This document shows, in pieces, positions 6,984 through 17,287 of a stretch of DNA of 24,314 nucleotides. Made by a program: the position numbers and the translations under genes. The DNA is from a virus. Under the pieces are notes generated by a model. The model ran no database searches. It saw nothing but the letters and a program-made list of their open reading frames with translations, and was not told where the DNA came from. The first letter of the stretch is position 1. The number at the start of each line of letters is the position of its first letter. The DNA lies in IMG/VR virus record IMGVR_UViG_3300029397_000035, positions 1 through 24,314 of that record; one strand, given 5' to 3'.

Positions 6984-7372
6984 TTGATCACCTGCACTTC
7001 CAGACCCAGCAGGGCCTTCATCAGATGGCGCTTGATCTTGAATTCAGGGGTCTCCACGCCCTTCACATCCTCAATCACCTCGATGCCCTTCTCCAGGTAC
7101 ACGAAATCAGCGATGTAGCGAATCGCGGGCCGGGCGCGCGCAGCGCCAGCAAACTTCACCGATGGGACCATCTCGAACACAACCTGGCGGCGCAGCTCAC
7201 TGATGTGGCCGCCACGCTGCAGCATCTGCAGGTGTGACCAGCGGTGGAGCTCGGCCAAGCTGTCGAACTTGGTGCCATCCCCCGCCACGATCTTCTTGTT
7301 TCGGTACTTTGAGCCTGACGCATTCGGAACCAGCTTCAACGCATAGCTTGTCAACTTCATTGCCTTGCTCAT
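6980..7372 (-). CDS. DUF1064 protein, predicted PD-(D/E)xK phage nuclease
   Basis: 130 aa. The sequence follows the DUF1064 pattern: NKKIV (25-29), KFDSLAELHRW (35-45), LRRQVVFEMVPSVKF (60-73), RPAIRYIADFVY (81-92) and IEDVKGVETPEFKIKRHLMKA (100-120). E41, D89, D102 and K104 fit the metal-binding and lysine positions of a PD-(D/E)xK nuclease. These proteins sit in phage replication operons and are suspected Holliday-junction or branch resolvases, functionally like RusA. The first ATG is used because it overlaps the P-like stop by 4 nt. A second Met four residues later is possible. Confidence 0.82.
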   Translation of the reverse strand: MSKAMKLTSYALKLVPNASGSKYRNKKIVAGDGTKFDSLAELHRWSHLQMLQRGGHISELRRQVVFEMVPSVKFAGAARARPAIRYIADFVYLEKGIEVIEDVKGVETPEFKIKRHLMKALLGLEVQVIK

Positions 7373-7935
7373 GCAGCCGCACCCCGCTGGTTCATGCCCA
7401 GGGTCTCCATTGCCGCTATACGGGTGTGGCGCGTCACGCTCTGGTCGCCATGATTGATGCGAGCAACGATCTTCCGAGCCCAGTCCTTGCCATCGCCCTG
7501 GAGCTCGACCGGCACGTCCAGCAGGCGCTCCACCTTGGGCGCAGGCAGCGCCAGTAGGCCGCTCTCTTCAAAGTAGGTCTTGCGGGGCGTCAGGGCCTCA
7601 CAGACCTTTTCAAACTGGGGGAGGCTCGGCGGAAACTCCGGGCATTCGCGCTTGATGTTCTGGAAAGCTGCCTCGATCACGTCATCCGCGAACTTCGCCA
7701 AGTCCGCATCCCAAACCAGCTGCGCAGCCCGCACCCCTTTGTCCTCACGGCGTTCGTTCAGCTCGCCGCTGCTGAACTTGGCCAGGAATGCTGTGCCGTA
7801 GGCGCCCTGCAGCACCACAAACAGCTTGCGGATGCGCTGCGATGCTTCGGGGCGCGGCGCCAGATGGCCTTGCTGCTGTCCGGCGCTGTGCACGGCACGA
7901 GATGCCAGGCTGGAGATTTCGTGGCTGCTTCTCAT
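7369..7935 (-). CDS. Lambda P-like replication protein (helicase loader candidate)
   Basis: 188 aa, immediately after the O-like gene with a 4-bp ATGA overlap. The segment RIRKLFVVLQGAYGTAF (about 34-50), the Trp in AAQLVWDADLAKF (71-82) and ECPEFPPSLPQFEKVCEAL (97-115) follow the lambda P-family pattern. In that pattern a hydrophobic LF..L...YG is followed by W...L and then a PPSLPEF..LC motif. Lambda P recruits the host DnaB helicase to the O-bound origin. The match is from recalled family pattern rather than an alignment, and the C-terminal third has no recognised features. Confidence 0.68.
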   Translation of the reverse strand: MRSSHEISSLASRAVHSAGQQQGHLAPRPEASQRIRKLFVVLQGAYGTAFLAKFSSGELNERREDKGVRAAQLVWDADLAKFADDVIEAAFQNIKRECPEFPPSLPQFEKVCEALTPRKTYFEESGLLALPAPKVERLLDVPVELQGDGKDWARKIVARINHGDQSVTRHTRIAAMETLGMNQRGAAA

Positions 7936-8789
7936 AGCTCAATCCCTTCAAAGATGGCCTTGCCGGCACCGGCGTATTTGCCAGCTGCTGCGGATGCAGG
8001 TGCCATGGATGGACGGCGCGCTGCGGGCATTTCGGTGGCGCGGCGGATCCAGTTGCGCCAGGTCGCACCCCAGTCAGCCTTGCGCCCGTCCTTACCCGCC
8101 TTGGCGCGCCAGTGGTCGGCAAACATCGCGGCCTGGCGGCGCACCTCTTCCTCGGTCAAGCCGGCATGTTCGGCAATGGCCCAGTCACCCCAGCTCTTGG
8201 GCAGCTTCCAGTCTTCGGGCAGGCGTGTTCCTGTCGCAGTCTTGCCCCTTCCCTTCGCCTCTTCTGGCTGAGCCGGAGGCGAAGTGTCACGGTCAGCAGC
8301 ACCTACAGCCTTTGAATAGTTAACTGTCTCTTCTTTATCTATATCTGTATCTGTATCTGTATCTGTACGCGTGACATCCGTACCCGTCACGCGTGACTCA
8401 CCCGTGACCTGATCGTGACCACCCTCTTGGCCCTCTGAAACTGCGTCTTTTTTGCGCTGGCGCTGGCGGCGTTTGCGCTCTGCTGCAGTGGTATCGGTGT
8501 CGCTGCGCATCTGCAAAGTGGCCCACTTGGAAGGCTGCAGGGTGGCCTGTTCGATCAGTCCGACCTCAGCCAGGCGGCGGGCCACCTCTTCCAGGCTGCG
8601 CACGTCCAGCCCCAGCTTCACGGCCACCTTGCGCATCAGCAGCGCAGGGGCGTCGCCCTTGTCCAGCAGACCCTCGCCCTTGAGGCACAACAGGGCGACA
8701 AAGTGCCAGCGATCCTCAAAGGCCAGCAGCTTGAGCTTGTCGTCATCGACCATCCGCGTATAGGTGCGGAACCATGGCAGTTTGCTCAT
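7932..8789 (-). CDS. Lambda O-like replication initiator with DnaT-like C-terminal domain
   Basis: 285 aa. Residues 1-95 (MSKLPWFRTYTRMVDDDKL... RRLAEVGLIEQ) look like a winged-helix DNA-binding domain, as in phage replication initiators. A basic AAERKRRQRQRKK linker and a low-complexity Thr/Asp region (128-151, including TDTDTDTDID) follow. The C-terminal block, LPEDWKLPKSWGDWAIAEHAGL...WGATWRNWIRRA (190-251), is the conserved DnaT/primosome-type domain of phage initiators. The low-complexity stretch is encoded by a repeat cluster that may be the origin itself, as in lambda O. It overlaps both neighbours by 4 nt. The function, binding the phage origin and recruiting the loader/helicase with the P-like protein, follows from family and position. 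Confidence 0.8.
   Translation of the reverse strand: MSKLPWFRTYTRMVDDDKLKLLAFEDRWHFVALLCLKGEGLLDKGDAPALLMRKVAVKLGLDVRSLEEVARRLAEVGLIEQATLQPSKWATLQMRSDTDTTAAERKRRQRQRKKDAVSEGQEGGHDQVTGESRVTGTDVTRTDTDTDTDIDKEETVNYSKAVGAADRDTSPPAQPEEAKGRGKTATGTRLPEDWKLPKSWGDWAIAEHAGLTEEEVRRQAAMFADHWRAKAGKDGRKADWGATWRNWIRRATEMPAARRPSMAPASAAAGKYAGAGKAIFEGIEL
8311..8420. repeat. Candidate replication origin inside the O-like gene
   Basis: Three adjoining elements: an AT-rich stretch (8311-8345), a tandem hexamer tract of four perfect ATCTGT units plus one degenerate unit (8337-8366), and five GTGAC-type pentamers at 8371, 8386 (inverted), 8393, 8404 and 8415. The last three are spaced exactly 11 bp, about one helical turn. 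Iterons plus an AT-rich unwinding region within the initiator gene is the lambda ori layout. No binding data can be inferred from sequence. Confidence 0.5.
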
Positions 8790-9271
8790 CGCTCAGACCT
8801 CGCGGCTTCGGGCTTGCCTGCGGCGTTCACAGCGCGCGCGGCCTGGCGCAGCTTGCGCAGCACTTCCTCGGCCTCGGCAATCTCACGCTCGATCTGCACC
8901 AGCTCGTTGTCTGAAATCACGCCATCCTGCATGGCATCAATCACCGCAGTGGTGACATGCGACGTCTCCAGCACCAGCTTGGACACCTTGGCCACCGGGC
9001 TCGGCGCGTCGGCCATGGGGCCCGTCACCAACTCAAACCGGCCGCCGCATTCCTGGGCCACCACGGATGCGTAGTCATAGCAGTGGGGGCGGCCCTCTTC
9101 GCAGGCAATGCGGGCAATGGTCAGGGCGTCTACCGCGCCCAGCTTGTGAGAGGCCGCGCCAGACAGCTCCTTGCGCAGAACCTCGCCAGTCTTGCCAATA
9201 CGAACGGCCACCACTTCGCGGCCGCCAGGATAGTTATCTACGCCACGGCGCAGGGCATCAAGTGTGCTCAT
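8786..9271 (-). CDS. Phage regulatory protein of the CII/CP76 family
   Basis: 161 aa from MSTLDALRRGVDNYPGG. The N-terminal half follows the CP76 (phage 186 CII-type) pattern: ALRRGVDNYPGGREVVAVRIGKTGEVLRKELS, then SHKLGAVDALTIARI, then ALxxE-like YASVVAQECGGRFELV. It ends in a long coiled-coil-like helix (ELVQIEREIAEAEEVLRKLRQAARAV). Such proteins activate the lysogenic promoter after infection. Here the gene lies in the early leftward operon between Cro and the O-like gene, the map position of lambda cII. The upstream open frame to 9406 was rejected because GGAG sits eight bases before this ATG. Its stop overlaps the O-like start by 4 nt. Confidence 0.75.
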   Translation of the reverse strand: MSTLDALRRGVDNYPGGREVVAVRIGKTGEVLRKELSGAASHKLGAVDALTIARIACEEGRPHCYDYASVVAQECGGRFELVTGPMADAPSPVAKVSKLVLETSHVTTAVIDAMQDGVISDNELVQIEREIAEAEEVLRKLRQAARAVNAAGKPEAARSER

Positions 9272-9433
9272 GTCCGGATCTCCAGAAAAAGGACGTTGCG
9301 GGCTGGGCCGCTGCAAAAGACACTGCCTGCATGCAAATGACAACAGGCCAAAAGAGAGGAAAAGGTGCCCGCCGCACCCTGGGCTATGCTGGGAGCTCCT
9401 ACACAACCAACACCAGAGAGGGCGGACAAGAAA

Positions 9434-9904
9434 ATGGACTGGACAGCAATCGGCGGCATTACTGCTTCAATCTCCGCGGCAAGAGACATTGCCAAGGGAT
9501 TGAGTGCAACCCGCGACGCCGCCCTCATCAACGAAAAGACCTCTGCCCTGTTGGAGCAGTTGCTCAAGGCGCAGGAGGGACTCCTCGCTCACAACACCGC
9601 TCTTTTGCAGCTCCAATCGGATCTGGCCAAGGTGCAAAAGGAAAATCTGGAACTGAAGGCAACCATCGATGAGCGCGGCAAATACACGCTGGTCACGCTC
9701 GCTAGCGGTGCCGTTGCGCTGCGCCGCAATCCCGCCAACAACCCCGCTGGGGCCGCAGAGCCAGGAATCGATGAGGCGCCCCACTATGTCTGCCAGCCCT
9801 GCTTCTCCATTGGCAGGTCTGTTGTGCTCCAGCGCCACAGGATTTGGGGCGCCGACAACGGGCTCATTTGCCCTGCGTGCAATGCCCAAGTCTTCGATAA
9901 GTGA
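9434..9904 (+). CDS. Prophage protein: helical N-terminus plus zinc ribbon, antisense within the early operon
   Basis: 156 aa from MDWTAIGGITASISAARD. Residues about 1-100 are helical and coiled-coil-like (ALINEKTSALLEQLLKAQEGLL, LAKVQKENLELKATIDERG). A short beta-type segment YTLVTLASGAVALRR comes next, then a zinc ribbon with CQPC and CPAC pairs (about 30 residues apart). Proteins of this build occur near repressor genes in many proteobacterial prophages, with no known function. It is convergent with cro (2 nt between stops) and divergent from the CII-like gene. The leftward early transcript therefore crosses it in antisense, and its own expression is more likely in the lysogen. GAGGG lies upstream of the start but with long spacing. 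Confidence 0.75.
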   Translation: MDWTAIGGITASISAARDIAKGLSATRDAALINEKTSALLEQLLKAQEGLLAHNTALLQLQSDLAKVQKENLELKATIDERGKYTLVTLASGAVALRRNPANNPAGAAEPGIDEAPHYVCQPCFSIGRSVVLQRHRIWGADNGLICPACNAQVFDK

Positions 9905-9906
9905 CA

Positions 9907-10161
9907 TCACTCCACCTCCTTGGTTGAGGTGGATGGCTGCGCCAGCGCCTCTGAGCCTTGCCGCGACCTTTGGGCTGTAGCTGCCTGCAGATCTATGCGA
10001 GCCAGCGCCTTCTTGTGAGCAAGGCGCAGGTACATCATTCGCGCGGGTGGAATCCCAACTTCCTTCCAGGCGGTAACGCTCGGCATGGCGATTTTGAAGA
10101 TTCGAGCCACGGCTGCGGTGCCGCCAAGGGCCTCAATAACTTGGACTGCAGGTGCGTTCAT
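9907..10161 (-). CDS. Cro / YdaS-type HTH repressor
   Basis: 84 aa. An N-terminal helix-turn-helix runs VQVIEALGGTAAVARIFKIAMPSVTAWKEVGIPPARMMYL (about 7-46), with the turn and recognition helix in VARIFKIAMPSVTAWK. This is the YdaS/Cro pattern. The C-terminal 35 residues are polar and probably disordered. It diverges from ci across three operator-like palindromes, so it should be the lytic repressor acting on the same sites. No Shine-Dalgarno precedes the ATG, and the predicted pR start point falls at or next to the A of the ATG, so the mRNA may be leaderless. Confidence 0.85.
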   Translation of the reverse strand: MNAPAVQVIEALGGTAAVARIFKIAMPSVTAWKEVGIPPARMMYLRLAHKKALARIDLQAATAQRSRQGSEALAQPSTSTKEVE

Positions 10162-10167
10162 GCACGA

Positions 10168-10196
10168 ATATTAGCTCAGGCTACTGATTAAAACAA
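10168..10196 (-). promoter_or_regulatory. Predicted early leftward promoter pR
   Basis: On the minus strand, TTGTTT (10196-10191), a 17-bp spacer and TAATAT (10173-10168). Operator OR1 (10171-10184) lies inside the spacer and -10 region. The expected start point, about 7 nt past the -10, is at about 10161, the first base of the cro ATG. Confidence 0.7.
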
Positions 10197-10232
10197 GCCA
10201 AGGCTAATGAATATATTGTTAGGCTACGCTAA
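10171..10232. promoter_or_regulatory. Right operator cluster (three CI/Cro sites) and pRM
   Basis: Three 14-bp imperfect palindromes: TTAGCTCAGGCTAC (10171-10184), CAAGCCAAGGCTAA (10194-10207) and TTAGGCTACGCTAA (10219-10232, abutting the ci ATG). The consensus is approximately TTAGCYnRGGCTAA. Centre-to-centre spacings are 23 and 25 bp. A rightward TATATT (10212-10217) with only a weak -35 (TTAAAA, 10188-10193) would be pRM, consistent with a promoter needing activation by bound CI. It would give a leader of about 8 nt with no Shine-Dalgarno. Confidence 0.75.
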
Positions 10233-10921
10233 TGAGTACGTTACAAGATCGAATGGCCTACTGCTTCCCGCTGCCGCACAAGCGGGGGTTGCGCGCGGCC
10301 ATTGCGCACGCCTGCGGCGTATCGGCGCCAACGGTCACCGCTTGGTTCAGCATGCCGGAAAAGGTTGCCAGCATGGAAAGGTCGTACGCCGAAGCGCTGT
10401 GCCGCGCATACAACCTAAATGTCTCGCCAGCATGGCTTGCTGAAGGAATAGGCCCTAGAGAGTTGCCCCCGGGCGACCGCCTCGTGATCGCAGAGCACTC
10501 AAATGTAGAGCCAGCCCTAGAACTTAAGAAGTCAAGAAGAGTGCCAATTACAGGAAGCGTGCGCGGCGGAGACGATGGCTATCTGGTGCAAGACACCACA
10601 CCGGATGGATGGGTCGAATACTGGACCGGAGATCCCCAGGCCTATGCTCTGCGCATCAAGGGAGACTCCATGCATCCGCGATACCGCGCAGGGGAGTTCG
10701 TGGTTGTCACGCCAAGCATCGAAGCCCAGCCAGGCCGCGATGTTGTCGTCAAGCTGCACAACGGCAAATGCCTCCTGAAGGAGCTCAACTGGGTTCGCGG
10801 CGACGAAATCCAGCTGCTGAGCATCAACAACGGCTATGCCCCCATGACCATCTCCAAGGAAGAGGTGGAATGCATCTGTCGTGTGGCAGGCTCAGTCGGG
10901 CCGGATTCGATGGTGTTTTAG
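10232..10921 (+). CDS. CI-type prophage repressor with S24 (LexA-like) autoprotease domain
   Basis: 229 aa. N-terminal DNA-binding domain: HKRGLRAAIAHACGVSAPTVTAWFSMPEKV (16-45), with the recognition helix around SAPTVTAWF, followed by ALCRAYNLNVSPAWLAEGIG (55-74). C-terminal S24 peptidase fold: YALRIKGDSMHPRYRAGEFVVV with nucleophile Ser146 in GDSM and general base Lys183 in CLLKEL. The spacing of 37 equals that of S119/K156 in E. coli LexA. The scissile bond is probably in GSVRGGDD (about 108-115), where a Gly-Gly replaces the usual Ala-Gly or Cys-Gly. It should keep the prophage silent by binding both operator clusters and be cleaved upon RecA activation. It is the first gene of the lysogenic transcript. 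Confidence 0.92.
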   Translation: MSTLQDRMAYCFPLPHKRGLRAAIAHACGVSAPTVTAWFSMPEKVASMERSYAEALCRAYNLNVSPAWLAEGIGPRELPPGDRLVIAEHSNVEPALELKKSRRVPITGSVRGGDDGYLVQDTTPDGWVEYWTGDPQAYALRIKGDSMHPRYRAGEFVVVTPSIEAQPGRDVVVKLHNGKCLLKELNWVRGDEIQLLSINNGYAPMTISKEEVECICRVAGSVGPDSMVF

Positions 10922-10963
10922 CGCTGCGTCGTTGATTAATAGAGCTGCACAAGGAAGCGCACT

Positions 10964-11428
10964 TTGGATTCAGTCACAGAAGAGGAAGCCAGGGAGTTAC
11001 TGGCCACATTGCATGTCTGCGAAGATGCAGACTTGGACGACTGGCAGGTGCTGGAGAAGCCTTTCGGCGCATACACTTTCGAGCAAGGGCTGGTTACAGA
11101 AAGTGGCAGTAACTCCGGCCTGGTGGTACAACTGAACTTCTATCGCTCACCAGAAACAAACCTCATCACAGTGAAGATGAGTGTTTTTCGGCAAGTGCGA
11201 AAACAGCCGAAAGTTAGGGTTTACCAACTTCATATCACAACGAAGAGCTACAACCCTGACAATTGGCACGACGAGGCTCACGAACATTACGGTAGGGGAC
11301 GCAATCCGGTGCCTCAATGGCGCGACTGGCGCTCTTTCGGGGACGTTCTAGATTTTTTTTGTAAACAGACCAACATTGAATTCAGGCCGGAGCTCGACGA
11401 CCCTGAGCAACTGAGGCTAAAGCCATGA
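10964..11428 (+). CDS. Uncharacterised immunity-region protein (rexA position)
   Basis: 154 aa with a TTG start at 10964 preceded by AAGGAAG seven bases upstream; no better in-frame start was found. It has an acidic N-terminus (VTEEEARELLATLHVCEDADLDDW), a predicted beta-rich core (FGAYTFEQGLVTE, SGLVVQLNFYRS, LITVKMSVFRQV, KVRVYQLHITTK) and a conserved-looking end (AHEHYGRGRNPVPQWRDWRSFGDVLDFFCKQTNIEF, then LDDPEQLRLKP). No catalytic motif is evident. It follows ci by 42 nt with no terminator seen, and its stop overlaps the next start (ATGA), so it is probably made in the lysogen as a pair with the DUF1828-type protein. Toxin-antitoxin, exclusion or anti-phage function are all possible; none is shown. 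Confidence 0.72.
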   Translation: MDSVTEEEARELLATLHVCEDADLDDWQVLEKPFGAYTFEQGLVTESGSNSGLVVQLNFYRSPETNLITVKMSVFRQVRKQPKVRVYQLHITTKSYNPDNWHDEAHEHYGRGRNPVPQWRDWRSFGDVLDFFCKQTNIEFRPELDDPEQLRLKP

Positions 11429-12183
11429 TCTGCAAAGACTTACTCAACATGACCGGGTTTGCATGCCAACCCATCAGCGAGCAAGGAGACCTTGCAAGGA
11501 TCAGCACGCCCTTTTGTTTTGCAGACGGGGATCCTGTGCCGGTCTATGTGCAGTCGTTTGCGAATGATGTGCATAGGTTTTTCGATGACGGGCAGACGTT
11601 GCTGCACTTCATTGGCAGAGGCATGCAGCTAAACAATGGCCACAAGCTCAGGTTCGTGAGCAACATTGCCCAGAAGCACGGCGCAGCGATGAATGACAAC
11701 GGTGTGTTAGAGCTATTCTCTAAGGGATCATCCCCGTCGGATGCCTTTGCTCAGTACATCACATGCATGATTGCCATTAGTCAATGGGAGCATGAGCATC
11801 AAGGCCTCGATGCCGGTGCCGCTGCGTTCGCCGACGAAGTTGCGCATGCCTTGCTCAGCCTCTACCCAGCTAGCGCCAATACCTTCATGCCAAAGCCTGT
11901 CTATCTTGGAAGCTCCGGCAAGAGGCACGAGCTTGATTTCAGCTTTGAAGGCAAAGGCTACATCGCTGTAAGGCCCAATCAACAATCTGCCGCTCCGGCC
12001 CTATACAAACTTGTCGACATCACCAACAGGCAAACAAATGAAGATGCGCAACTGGTGGTTGTCATTGATGACAGGTATGACAAAACAGCGGCAAAAAGTA
12101 CAAAGCAAGTATTCAGAAGTATTGCTAGCGATGTGATCAGCTTTAGCAAACTTGAAGGGCCAAGCCAAGTCGTGATGCATTGA
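11425..12183 (+). CDS. DUF1828-type protein in the rexB position
   Basis: 252 aa, coupled to the preceding gene by a 4-bp overlap. The N-terminal third (ARISTPFCFADGDPVPVYVQSFANDVHRFFDDGQTLLHF, about 24-62) matches the DUF1828 pattern of beta-strands with a DDG turn. The C-terminal half (ELDFSFEGKGYIAVRPNQ..., ALYKLVDITNRQTNEDAQLVVVIDDRYDKTAAKS) resembles the DUF1829 region that often follows. Neither domain has a known activity. Co-transcription with ci in the interval between the two operator clusters places it where lambda has rexB. A canonical terminator starts five bases after its stop, ending the lysogenic operon. Confidence 0.7.
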   Translation: MICKDLLNMTGFACQPISEQGDLARISTPFCFADGDPVPVYVQSFANDVHRFFDDGQTLLHFIGRGMQLNNGHKLRFVSNIAQKHGAAMNDNGVLELFSKGSSPSDAFAQYITCMIAISQWEHEHQGLDAGAAAFADEVAHALLSLYPASANTFMPKPVYLGSSGKRHELDFSFEGKGYIAVRPNQQSAAPALYKLVDITNRQTNEDAQLVVVIDDRYDKTAAKSTKQVFRSIASDVISFSKLEGPSQVVMH

Positions 12184-12187
12184 TCTC

Positions 12188-12210
12188 AGCCCGCCTCGAG
12201 CGGGCTTTTT
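12188..12210 (+). terminator. Terminator closing the ci operon
   Basis: AGCCCGC / GCGGGCT 7-bp stem, loop CTCGA, then TTTTT. It lies just after the DUF1828-type stop and before the separate 67-aa gene. Confidence 0.85.
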
Positions 12211-12227
12211 CATGGCGCTACCCCCTT

Positions 12228-12431
12228 ATGGACGCTCCAGCCCCTCTCCTTCAGTTCACGAGCATCCGCACCCGCGCTGAGGACGGAAAGCTACTGATCG
12301 GCCTTAAGCACACCGCCAAGACTTCATCCGGCCTGCCCGTCTCAACCGCATGGATCGAGATGCCTCCTGAGGATGTGGAGCGACTCATCAAGTCGCTGCA
12401 AGGAGCTCTTGACGAGCTAGCCACTAAGTAG
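12228..12431 (+). CDS. Hypothetical small protein between two terminators
   Basis: 67 aa from MDAPAPLLQFTSIRTRAEDG. It is a compact beta-beta-beta-alpha-looking sequence: KLLIGLKHTA, GLPVSTAWIEMP, then helix PEDVERLIKSLQGALDELATK. It sits between two near-identical GCGGGCT terminators and just before the left operator cluster. The ATG at 12228 lacks a clear Shine-Dalgarno; the only alternative in-frame ATG (12180) would place the upstream terminator inside the gene. No family recognised. Because it is bounded by terminators it probably has its own promoter or depends on read-through from ci. Confidence 0.55.
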   Translation: MDAPAPLLQFTSIRTRAEDGKLLIGLKHTAKTSSGLPVSTAWIEMPPEDVERLIKSLQGALDELATK

Positions 12432-12450
12432 CCTATCGGCCTGTAACGCC

Positions 12451-12475
12451 AGCCCGCCACGTGCGGGCTTTTTTT
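12451..12475 (+). terminator. Terminator before the left operators
   Basis: AGCCCGC (12451-12457), loop CACGT, GCGGGCT (12463-12469), then a run of T. It separates the lysogenic region from pL. Confidence 0.85.
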
Positions 12476-12505
12476 CGTCCGCCGCATCTAACTGTCTTCA
12501 ATAAA

Positions 12506-12565
12506 TTTGCTCAGGCTTCAAATTTATTAGTCAAGGCTATTGATCTATAAATTAGCTTGAACTAA
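12506..12565. promoter_or_regulatory. Left operator cluster (three CI/Cro sites)
   Basis: Three 14-bp sites of the same type as at oR: TTTGCTCAGGCTTC (12506-12519, 12 of 14 identical to OR1), TTAGTCAAGGCTAT (12527-12540) and TTAGCTTGAACTAA (12552-12565, a TTAG...CTAA palindrome). Centre spacings are 21 and 25 bp. The cluster centre is about 2.33 kb from the oR centre. This is the oL position of lambda and a length suited to repressor-mediated DNA looping. Confidence 0.75.
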
Positions 12566-12568
12566 GAT
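12540..12568 (+). promoter_or_regulatory. Predicted rightward promoter pL
   Basis: TTGATC (12540-12545), a 17-bp spacer and TAAGAT (12563-12568). The outermost left operator lies within the spacer and overlaps the -10, exactly the geometry of pR at the other cluster. It would drive the right arm toward xis-int, with a start near 12575. Confidence 0.65.
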
Positions 12569-12596
12569 TGATCCATCGCGGCAACAAACCGCTGCG

Positions 12597-12830
12597 ATGG
12601 GTGCCAAGCGATCGAGCCGCGTGCCACGGGTCTTTAAAAAGCCAAGCACTCACCGTCAGCAATCGGGCTCCAGCTCGCCAAAGAGCGAGATTCAAGGGGC
12701 AATTTGCTTGAGGGATCGCGTCACCAAGAGAAGCAAGACGCCAATCAAGCAGCCGCGCGCTGCGAAGGAGAACACATGCGCGATGAATAGGCCGGATGCC
12801 CCGGCCCAGCAACTGCGGAAGCAGCGTTAG
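12597..12830 (+). CDS. Very basic small ORF in the position of lambda N
   Basis: 77 aa, first ORF after predicted pL. It has about 20 Lys/Arg, beginning MGAKRSSRVPRVFKKPSTHR, and almost no hydrophobic core, so it is probably disordered, like phage N antiterminators with an Arg-rich RNA-binding start. There is no sequence similarity I can point to, no Shine-Dalgarno, and the ATG lies in a stem formed by CCATCGC and GCGATGG. A boxA-like TCTTTAAA (12631-12638) and a hairpin CTCGC-CAAAGA-GCGAG (12674-12689) lie inside the ORF, but 35 nt apart rather than adjacent. The region may instead be an untranslated leader. The N-like call is positional inference only. Confidence 0.35.
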   Translation: MGAKRSSRVPRVFKKPSTHRQQSGSSSPKSEIQGAICLRDRVTKRSKTPIKQPRAAKENTCAMNRPDAPAQQLRKQR

Positions 12831-17154: not shown

Positions 17155-17287
17155 GGATTACCTTCTAAGTGAATTTCGCTACTTATTTTTCGGAGCGAAA
17201 GATGATTCCCAAGAGAACCACGGGAGTGCTTTGGTGAAGATTAGTCAGTAGCCAAAGCTTCTACTGAGGGATGAAAAATGATGCAGC

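Follow-up and report, generated by a model that had tools for sequence, protein, structure and literature searches.

The window analysed here, a 24,314-base IMG/VR virus record that is a fragment of a temperate phage, very probably carries a lambda-type dual-operator immunity switch, judging from its sequence and that of its relatives. Six sites of 14 bp, similar in sequence, form two triplets, one in the gap between cro and ci (10171–10232) and the other past the ci operon (12506–12565), and the two clusters mirror each other around ci (Table 1).

Layout of the immunity region

The repressor gene ci is followed by three more plus-strand ORFs, which end before the second operator triplet. The encoded CI combines an N-terminal helical DNA-binding domain with an S24/LexA-type C-terminal domain. 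The O-like and P-like genes complete the early part of the pR operon, and the gene order ci-cro-cII-O-P is the same as in lambda; the excisionase-like and integrase genes are found at the far right of the window, on the plus strand and on the pL side, which is also the side of int in lambda. For Cro, the Pfam matches (P22_Cro and YdaS) were weak and fell under the curated cut-off.

The sites are spaced by 23 and 25 bp at oR and by 21 and 25 bp at oL, and the distance from middle site to middle site is 2333 bp. These six sites, their spacings and both promoters had been put forward in a first-pass annotation of this DNA, and all of them were found to be in place. The same annotation had the outermost site of each cluster occupying the 17-bp spacer of a promoter; this holds, but each of these two sites also covers 3 bases of the -10 hexamer. 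The -35 hexamers, in turn, share 3 bases with oR2 and 1 base with oL2, the two middle sites. The weak member of the set is oL3 (12506), with 3 mismatches, and the relative L001/L014 is nearly identical to the window there (TTTGCTCAAGCTTC).

Table 1 Features of the immunity region in the window, as assigned from sequence.
Feature	Coordinates	Strand	Basis or remark
O-like replication initiator and P-like helicase loader genes	7369..8789	-	PHROG 1408 and 109
cII-like gene (Phage_CP76)	8786..9274	-	Pfam PF06892 2.7e-13, PHROG 101
cro-like lytic repressor gene, 84 aa	9907..10161	-	PHROG 8008/409 DNA-binding/transcription regulator
pR, TTGTTT-17-TAATAT	10168..10196	-	sequence
oR1, TTAGCTCAGGCTAC	10171..10184		inside pR spacer and -10
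Possible pRM, TTAAAA-18-TATATT	10188..10217	+	weak match
oR2, CAAGCCAAGGCTAA	10194..10207		overlaps pR -35
oR3, TTAGGCTACGCTAA	10219..10232		last base is the A of the ci start codon
ci, 229-aa repressor	10232..10921	+	Pfam PF00717 1.8e-18, PHROG 4 2e-29
Cargo interval, co-oriented with ci	10964..12431	+	ORFs 10964–11428, 11425–12183, 12180–12431
Predicted intrinsic terminator at the end of the ci operon, directly before oL	12451..12476	+	terminator prediction
oL3, TTTGCTCAGGCTTC, weak	12506..12519		conserved in L014
oL2, TTAGTCAAGGCTAT	12527..12540		adjoins pL -35
pL, TTGATC-17-TAAGAT, outward	12540..12568	+	sequence
oL1, TTAGCTTGAACTAA	12552..12565		inside pL spacer and -10

Recovery of the distal triplet from the proximal one

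Scanning the window for TTAGCYNRGGCTAA with up to 3 mismatches gave 17 matches compared with 13.2 expected, and 20 of 100 shuffles reached 17. As single-site matches are near chance, isolated sites mean little, and it is the clustering that carries significance. For the triplet test, we built a symmetric matrix from the three oR sites only and sought three sites 19–28 bp apart. The best triplet in the 24 kb was 12506/12527/12552, which scored 33.8 bits, compared with 15.4 ± 2.4 (maximum 25.9) in 200 dinucleotide shuffles and 12.6 for the runner-up triplet in the real window sequence. As a control, an OR matrix applied to 16 kb of lambda returned the annotated OL1, OL2 and OL3 exactly (48.3 versus 13.8 ± 2.7). 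The leave-one-out ranks of the six sites in the 24 kb were 3, 7, 6, 9, 7 and 5, and their isolated rivals were chiefly at 17248 and 12137. The former, an operator-like lone site at 17248–17261 (GTAGCCAAAGCTTC), outscores oL3.

Operator clusters in related phages

Relatives were collected by scanning IMG/VR with CI and Cro. Two further scans of genome contigs yielded no relative in the first and one Delftia acidovorans locus in the second, which has another DNA-binding domain and a contig too short for oL. The oL test took in loci with at least 3.3 kb after ci (n = 18 including the window, or 17 relatives). Left out were L019–L022 and L025, whose contigs end 1.2–2.0 kb after ci, and three loci with C-terminal domains 66–67% identical and operators that were unclear by eye. 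The automated register search for oR shifted, and the oR sites of the relatives were set by hand (offset from ci and inspection by eye); the distal clusters were found by the matrix and not chosen by hand.

In all 18 loci, the top-scoring distal triplet of the oR-only matrix lay downstream of ci, and 17 of the 18 beat all 200 shuffles, with L023 marginal (2 of 200). These loci represent fewer than 18 independent cases, because L033/L035 and L029/L030 are close and L016 and L017 come from one source genome. The comparison with related prophages suggested at first pass thus returned a matched distal cluster in every relative tested and, together with the matrix, it supports the view that a lambda-style double operator set surrounds ci, with pR and pL as mirror images. 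Across the relatives, pR and pL are positioned alike, and pL has TTGACA- or TTGACT-like -35 and TAACAAT or TATACT -10 elements, of which the TTGACA/TATACT-like versions are nearer to consensus than the pL of the window. In L013, L023 and L032 the inner sites are poor, and for two of these loci, L023 and L032, the number of good sites at oL is only two. A triplet found upstream in L022 was taken as chance.

By sequence comparison, the operator motif follows the DNA-binding domain of CI at both clusters, and not its C-terminal domain, which makes the family a natural domain-swap test. When each oR motif was scored on the oL of other loci, the mean was 36.2 for loci that share a domain type and 10.4 for loci of different types. 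For type II (GGCTAGnATTnCTAGCC) and type I (TTAGnnCAAGCTAA) loci, neither motif reads the other's oL, with several of the C-terminal domains almost identical; of all the motifs, that of type III (L023) is the least specific. The swap can be seen from both sides: L002–L008 have a C-terminal domain near-identical to the window's, other DNA-binding domains and a different motif (alignment A1), while L036 has a DNA-binding domain of the window's type, a different C-terminal domain and the same motif (alignment A3). Co-change of both clusters is expected if the DNA-binding domain of one protein must recognise both, and it argues, more strongly than any other evidence short of experiment, for a single protein doing so.

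A further combination occurs in L032 (reverse strand), where a Cro much like that of L033 accompanies another CI DNA-binding domain, and where the operators retain TTAG...CTAA ends around an altered core (TTAGCCTCTCCTAA). Cro may recognise the operator ends, and CI the core. We also considered that the sites might be read by Cro only, which is unlikely, as these two loci have similar Cro proteins yet differ in CI domain and operator core.

Cargo between ci and oL

The distance between the middle sites of oR and oL ranges from 1418 to 5175 bp across the 18 loci (3.6-fold), with L032 (1.4 kb) and L016 (5.2 kb) at the extremes. The cargo between ci and oL differs in almost every relative (L014, L016, L017, L028 and L036 among them). 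In the window, the ORF at 11425–12183 matches DUF1828/DUF1829 and is the PADLOC candidate PDC-M24B; a search of viral contigs with it found no relatives. Candidates elsewhere in the family include PDC-M18A (L017), parts of PD-Lambda-2 (L016), a Schlafen/AlbA-type protein (L036) and DUF3800. From this predicted gene content, the interval is a variable slot for candidate defence genes, and a place in which to seek prophage defence genes. The first-pass annotation had given weight to the lambda-like distance of about 2.3 kb, which we do not retain, as the same layout spans 1.42–5.18 kb in relatives: because the length of the interval is set by its varying cargo, 2.33 kb is no argument for a loop.

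Proposed switch and the case for looping

In the switch that we propose, the CI encoded by ci would bind both sets of three operators. At oR1 and oR2, in the core of pR, it would block cro and the replication operon, and oR3, which lies against the ci start, could shut off ci's own promoter. At oL1 and oL2, in the core of pL, it would block the early operon toward the excisionase and integrase genes, with oL3 as the inner, weaker site. Cro would probably act at these same sites when the switch turns to lysis. The two-turn spacing of the sites would suit cooperative dimers, and we propose cooperative binding at this spacing. What this scheme takes from the sequence comparison is the sites, their placement on pR and pL, and the co-change of the triplets with the DNA-binding domain. 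In the pRM region, 3 promoter-like sites were found compared with 1.7 expected, and as the possible pRM would have oR2 in its spacer, we make no case for CI as an activator of its own promoter; lambda-like activation of pRM is not supported.

We consider it rather probable that CI bridges oR and oL in a functional loop, because all three of the lambdoid repressors tested elsewhere loop: those of lambda, HK022 and phiKO2 do so between OL and OR in a direct assay (PMC8053113). For the wider proposition, that the CI domains and both operator triplets shuffle as modules, with the two operator sets always re-matched around a slot of 1.4–5.2 kb for defence genes, and that CI loops across any cargo in this slot and looping is hence tolerant of its varying length, we would put the chances at about even. 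The span itself would be no obstacle, since the lambda clusters still form a 20-kb loop at about 16% efficiency (PMC8053113). A real but tentative possibility is that both clusters bind CI and Cro independently, so that pR and pL are repressed locally and no functional long loop forms. The 3.6-fold variation in oR–oL distance would fit this, as would the lack of a good oL3 in some relatives and the precedent of phage 933W, in which, according to PMC5977221 and its reference 28, there are dual operators but OL3 is absent, and a loop plays no part at PRM; dual-operator architecture alone, therefore, does not prove looping. Against purely local repression, two to three sites are kept in each cluster at a spacing of about two turns, though oL1 and oL2 would be enough for pL, and the three-of-three record of the tested repressors again points to a loop.

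Two other readings concern the reality and the origin of the layout. The reading in which oR is the sole real operator and the distal match is due to chance or degeneracy draws on the near-chance frequency of single-site matches and on the weakness of the 12506 site; it is negligibly probable, given a triplet score beyond all 200 shuffles and the same place, geometry, promoter overlap and co-changing motif in 17 relatives. The first-pass annotation had also raised an independent instance of looping control, which we find doubtful, and we regard it as improbable that the layout arose by convergence with that of lambda. In its favour, a PDB sequence search with CI returned no lambda repressor at E ≤ 0.01, Cro has only the weak P22_Cro and YdaS matches, and the operator sequences are unlike lambda's. 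However, sequence distance says little where DNA-binding domains swap freely within the family, and the order ci-cro-cII-O-P with int on the pL side matches lambda. The predicted C-terminal domain of CI (whole monomer pTM 0.53) superposes on the lambda CI fragment 2ho0 with a TM-score of 0.76 by target and on the octamer crystal 1kca with 0.68, a fold that is also common to LexA and UmuD. With both the predicted C-terminal fold and the gene order shared with lambda, the simpler account is that the module shares its ancestry with lambda's.

Comparison with known systems

The lambda switch layout is already known, and is here extended, on the evidence of sequence, to a family of phages whose repressors have swapped domains. 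As in lambda, ci and cro are divergent with three operators between them, three more lie at pL beyond ci and its cargo (rexAB in lambda), cII-O-P follow cro, and the C-terminal domain has a predicted S24 fold. The spacings are 24/20 (OL) and 24/23 (OR) in lambda versus 25/21 and 23/25 in the window, and the clusters are about 2.3 kb apart in both. Lambda differs in operator sequence, including the 14-bp core, and in its type of Cro; the window, unlike lambda, has a CII of the CP76 family, an apparently leaderless cro and, at the cleavage position of CI, Gly-Gly where lambda has Ala-Gly. That position is Gly112-Gly113 in the window's CI clade (codons at about 10565–10570), while Ala-Gly is kept in L028, L036 and L058. 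Although Ser146 and Lys183 are invariant (alignment A3), this replacement makes cleavage by the RecA route uncertain.

HK022 and phiKO2 likewise have a repressor gene flanked by operator clusters at both early promoters, but their operator sequences differ and their clusters are about 700 and 630 bp apart, respectively (PMC8053113), versus 1.4–5.2 kb in the window's family. The likeness to 933W lies in dual operators around an S24 repressor, and it differs from the window in the missing OL3 and in a loop with no role at PRM (PMC5977221); phi24B, annotated with a 933W-like immunity region, was one of the phage records that matched, with 34% identity across 90% of CI. The best Foldseek E-value match of the predicted CI monomer was the CI of phage 186, with a low whole-chain TM-score. 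The 186 repressor is nonlambdoid and forms a 14-mer wheel with distal flanking sites, not two operator triplets (PMC8053113).

The family amounts to a natural experiment, in which one C-terminal domain is joined to various DNA-binding domains, each with matched operator triplets at 1.4–5.2 kb. It would allow loop-dependent repression to be measured as a function of the natural spacing, and would show how both of two distant operator sets come to be exchanged when the phage changes its immunity specificity. With its modular exchange and variable distance, the family is less a surprise than a useful test bed.

Transcript starts and the cro–cII gap

In the window, at 10159–10173 on the minus strand, the ATG of cro lies 6 nt past the pR -10 element, and the distance is 6–7 nt in 17 of 18 loci, so that the cro mRNA is probably leaderless in these 17. 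In lambda, the leaderless transcript is that of cI from pRM. The pL transcript would start with a strong hairpin (12571–12602; 12 pairs in the minimum-energy fold), followed by a conserved GTGCCAAGYGATCGAGCC and then by about 460 nt without a clear gene. The pL leader is a possible put- or nut-like antitermination element; it showed little covariation, and an Rfam search gave no match, the leader included.

Between cro and cII, a 156-aa ORF (9434–9904) lies on the plus strand, in the opposite orientation to both; it matches PHROG 1244, a group of unknown function. Different ORFs occupy the equivalent place in L001, L006 and L007. A similar stretch, GGTGCCCGCCGCACCCTGGGCTATGCTGG, lies upstream and may contain a CII-activated pRE.
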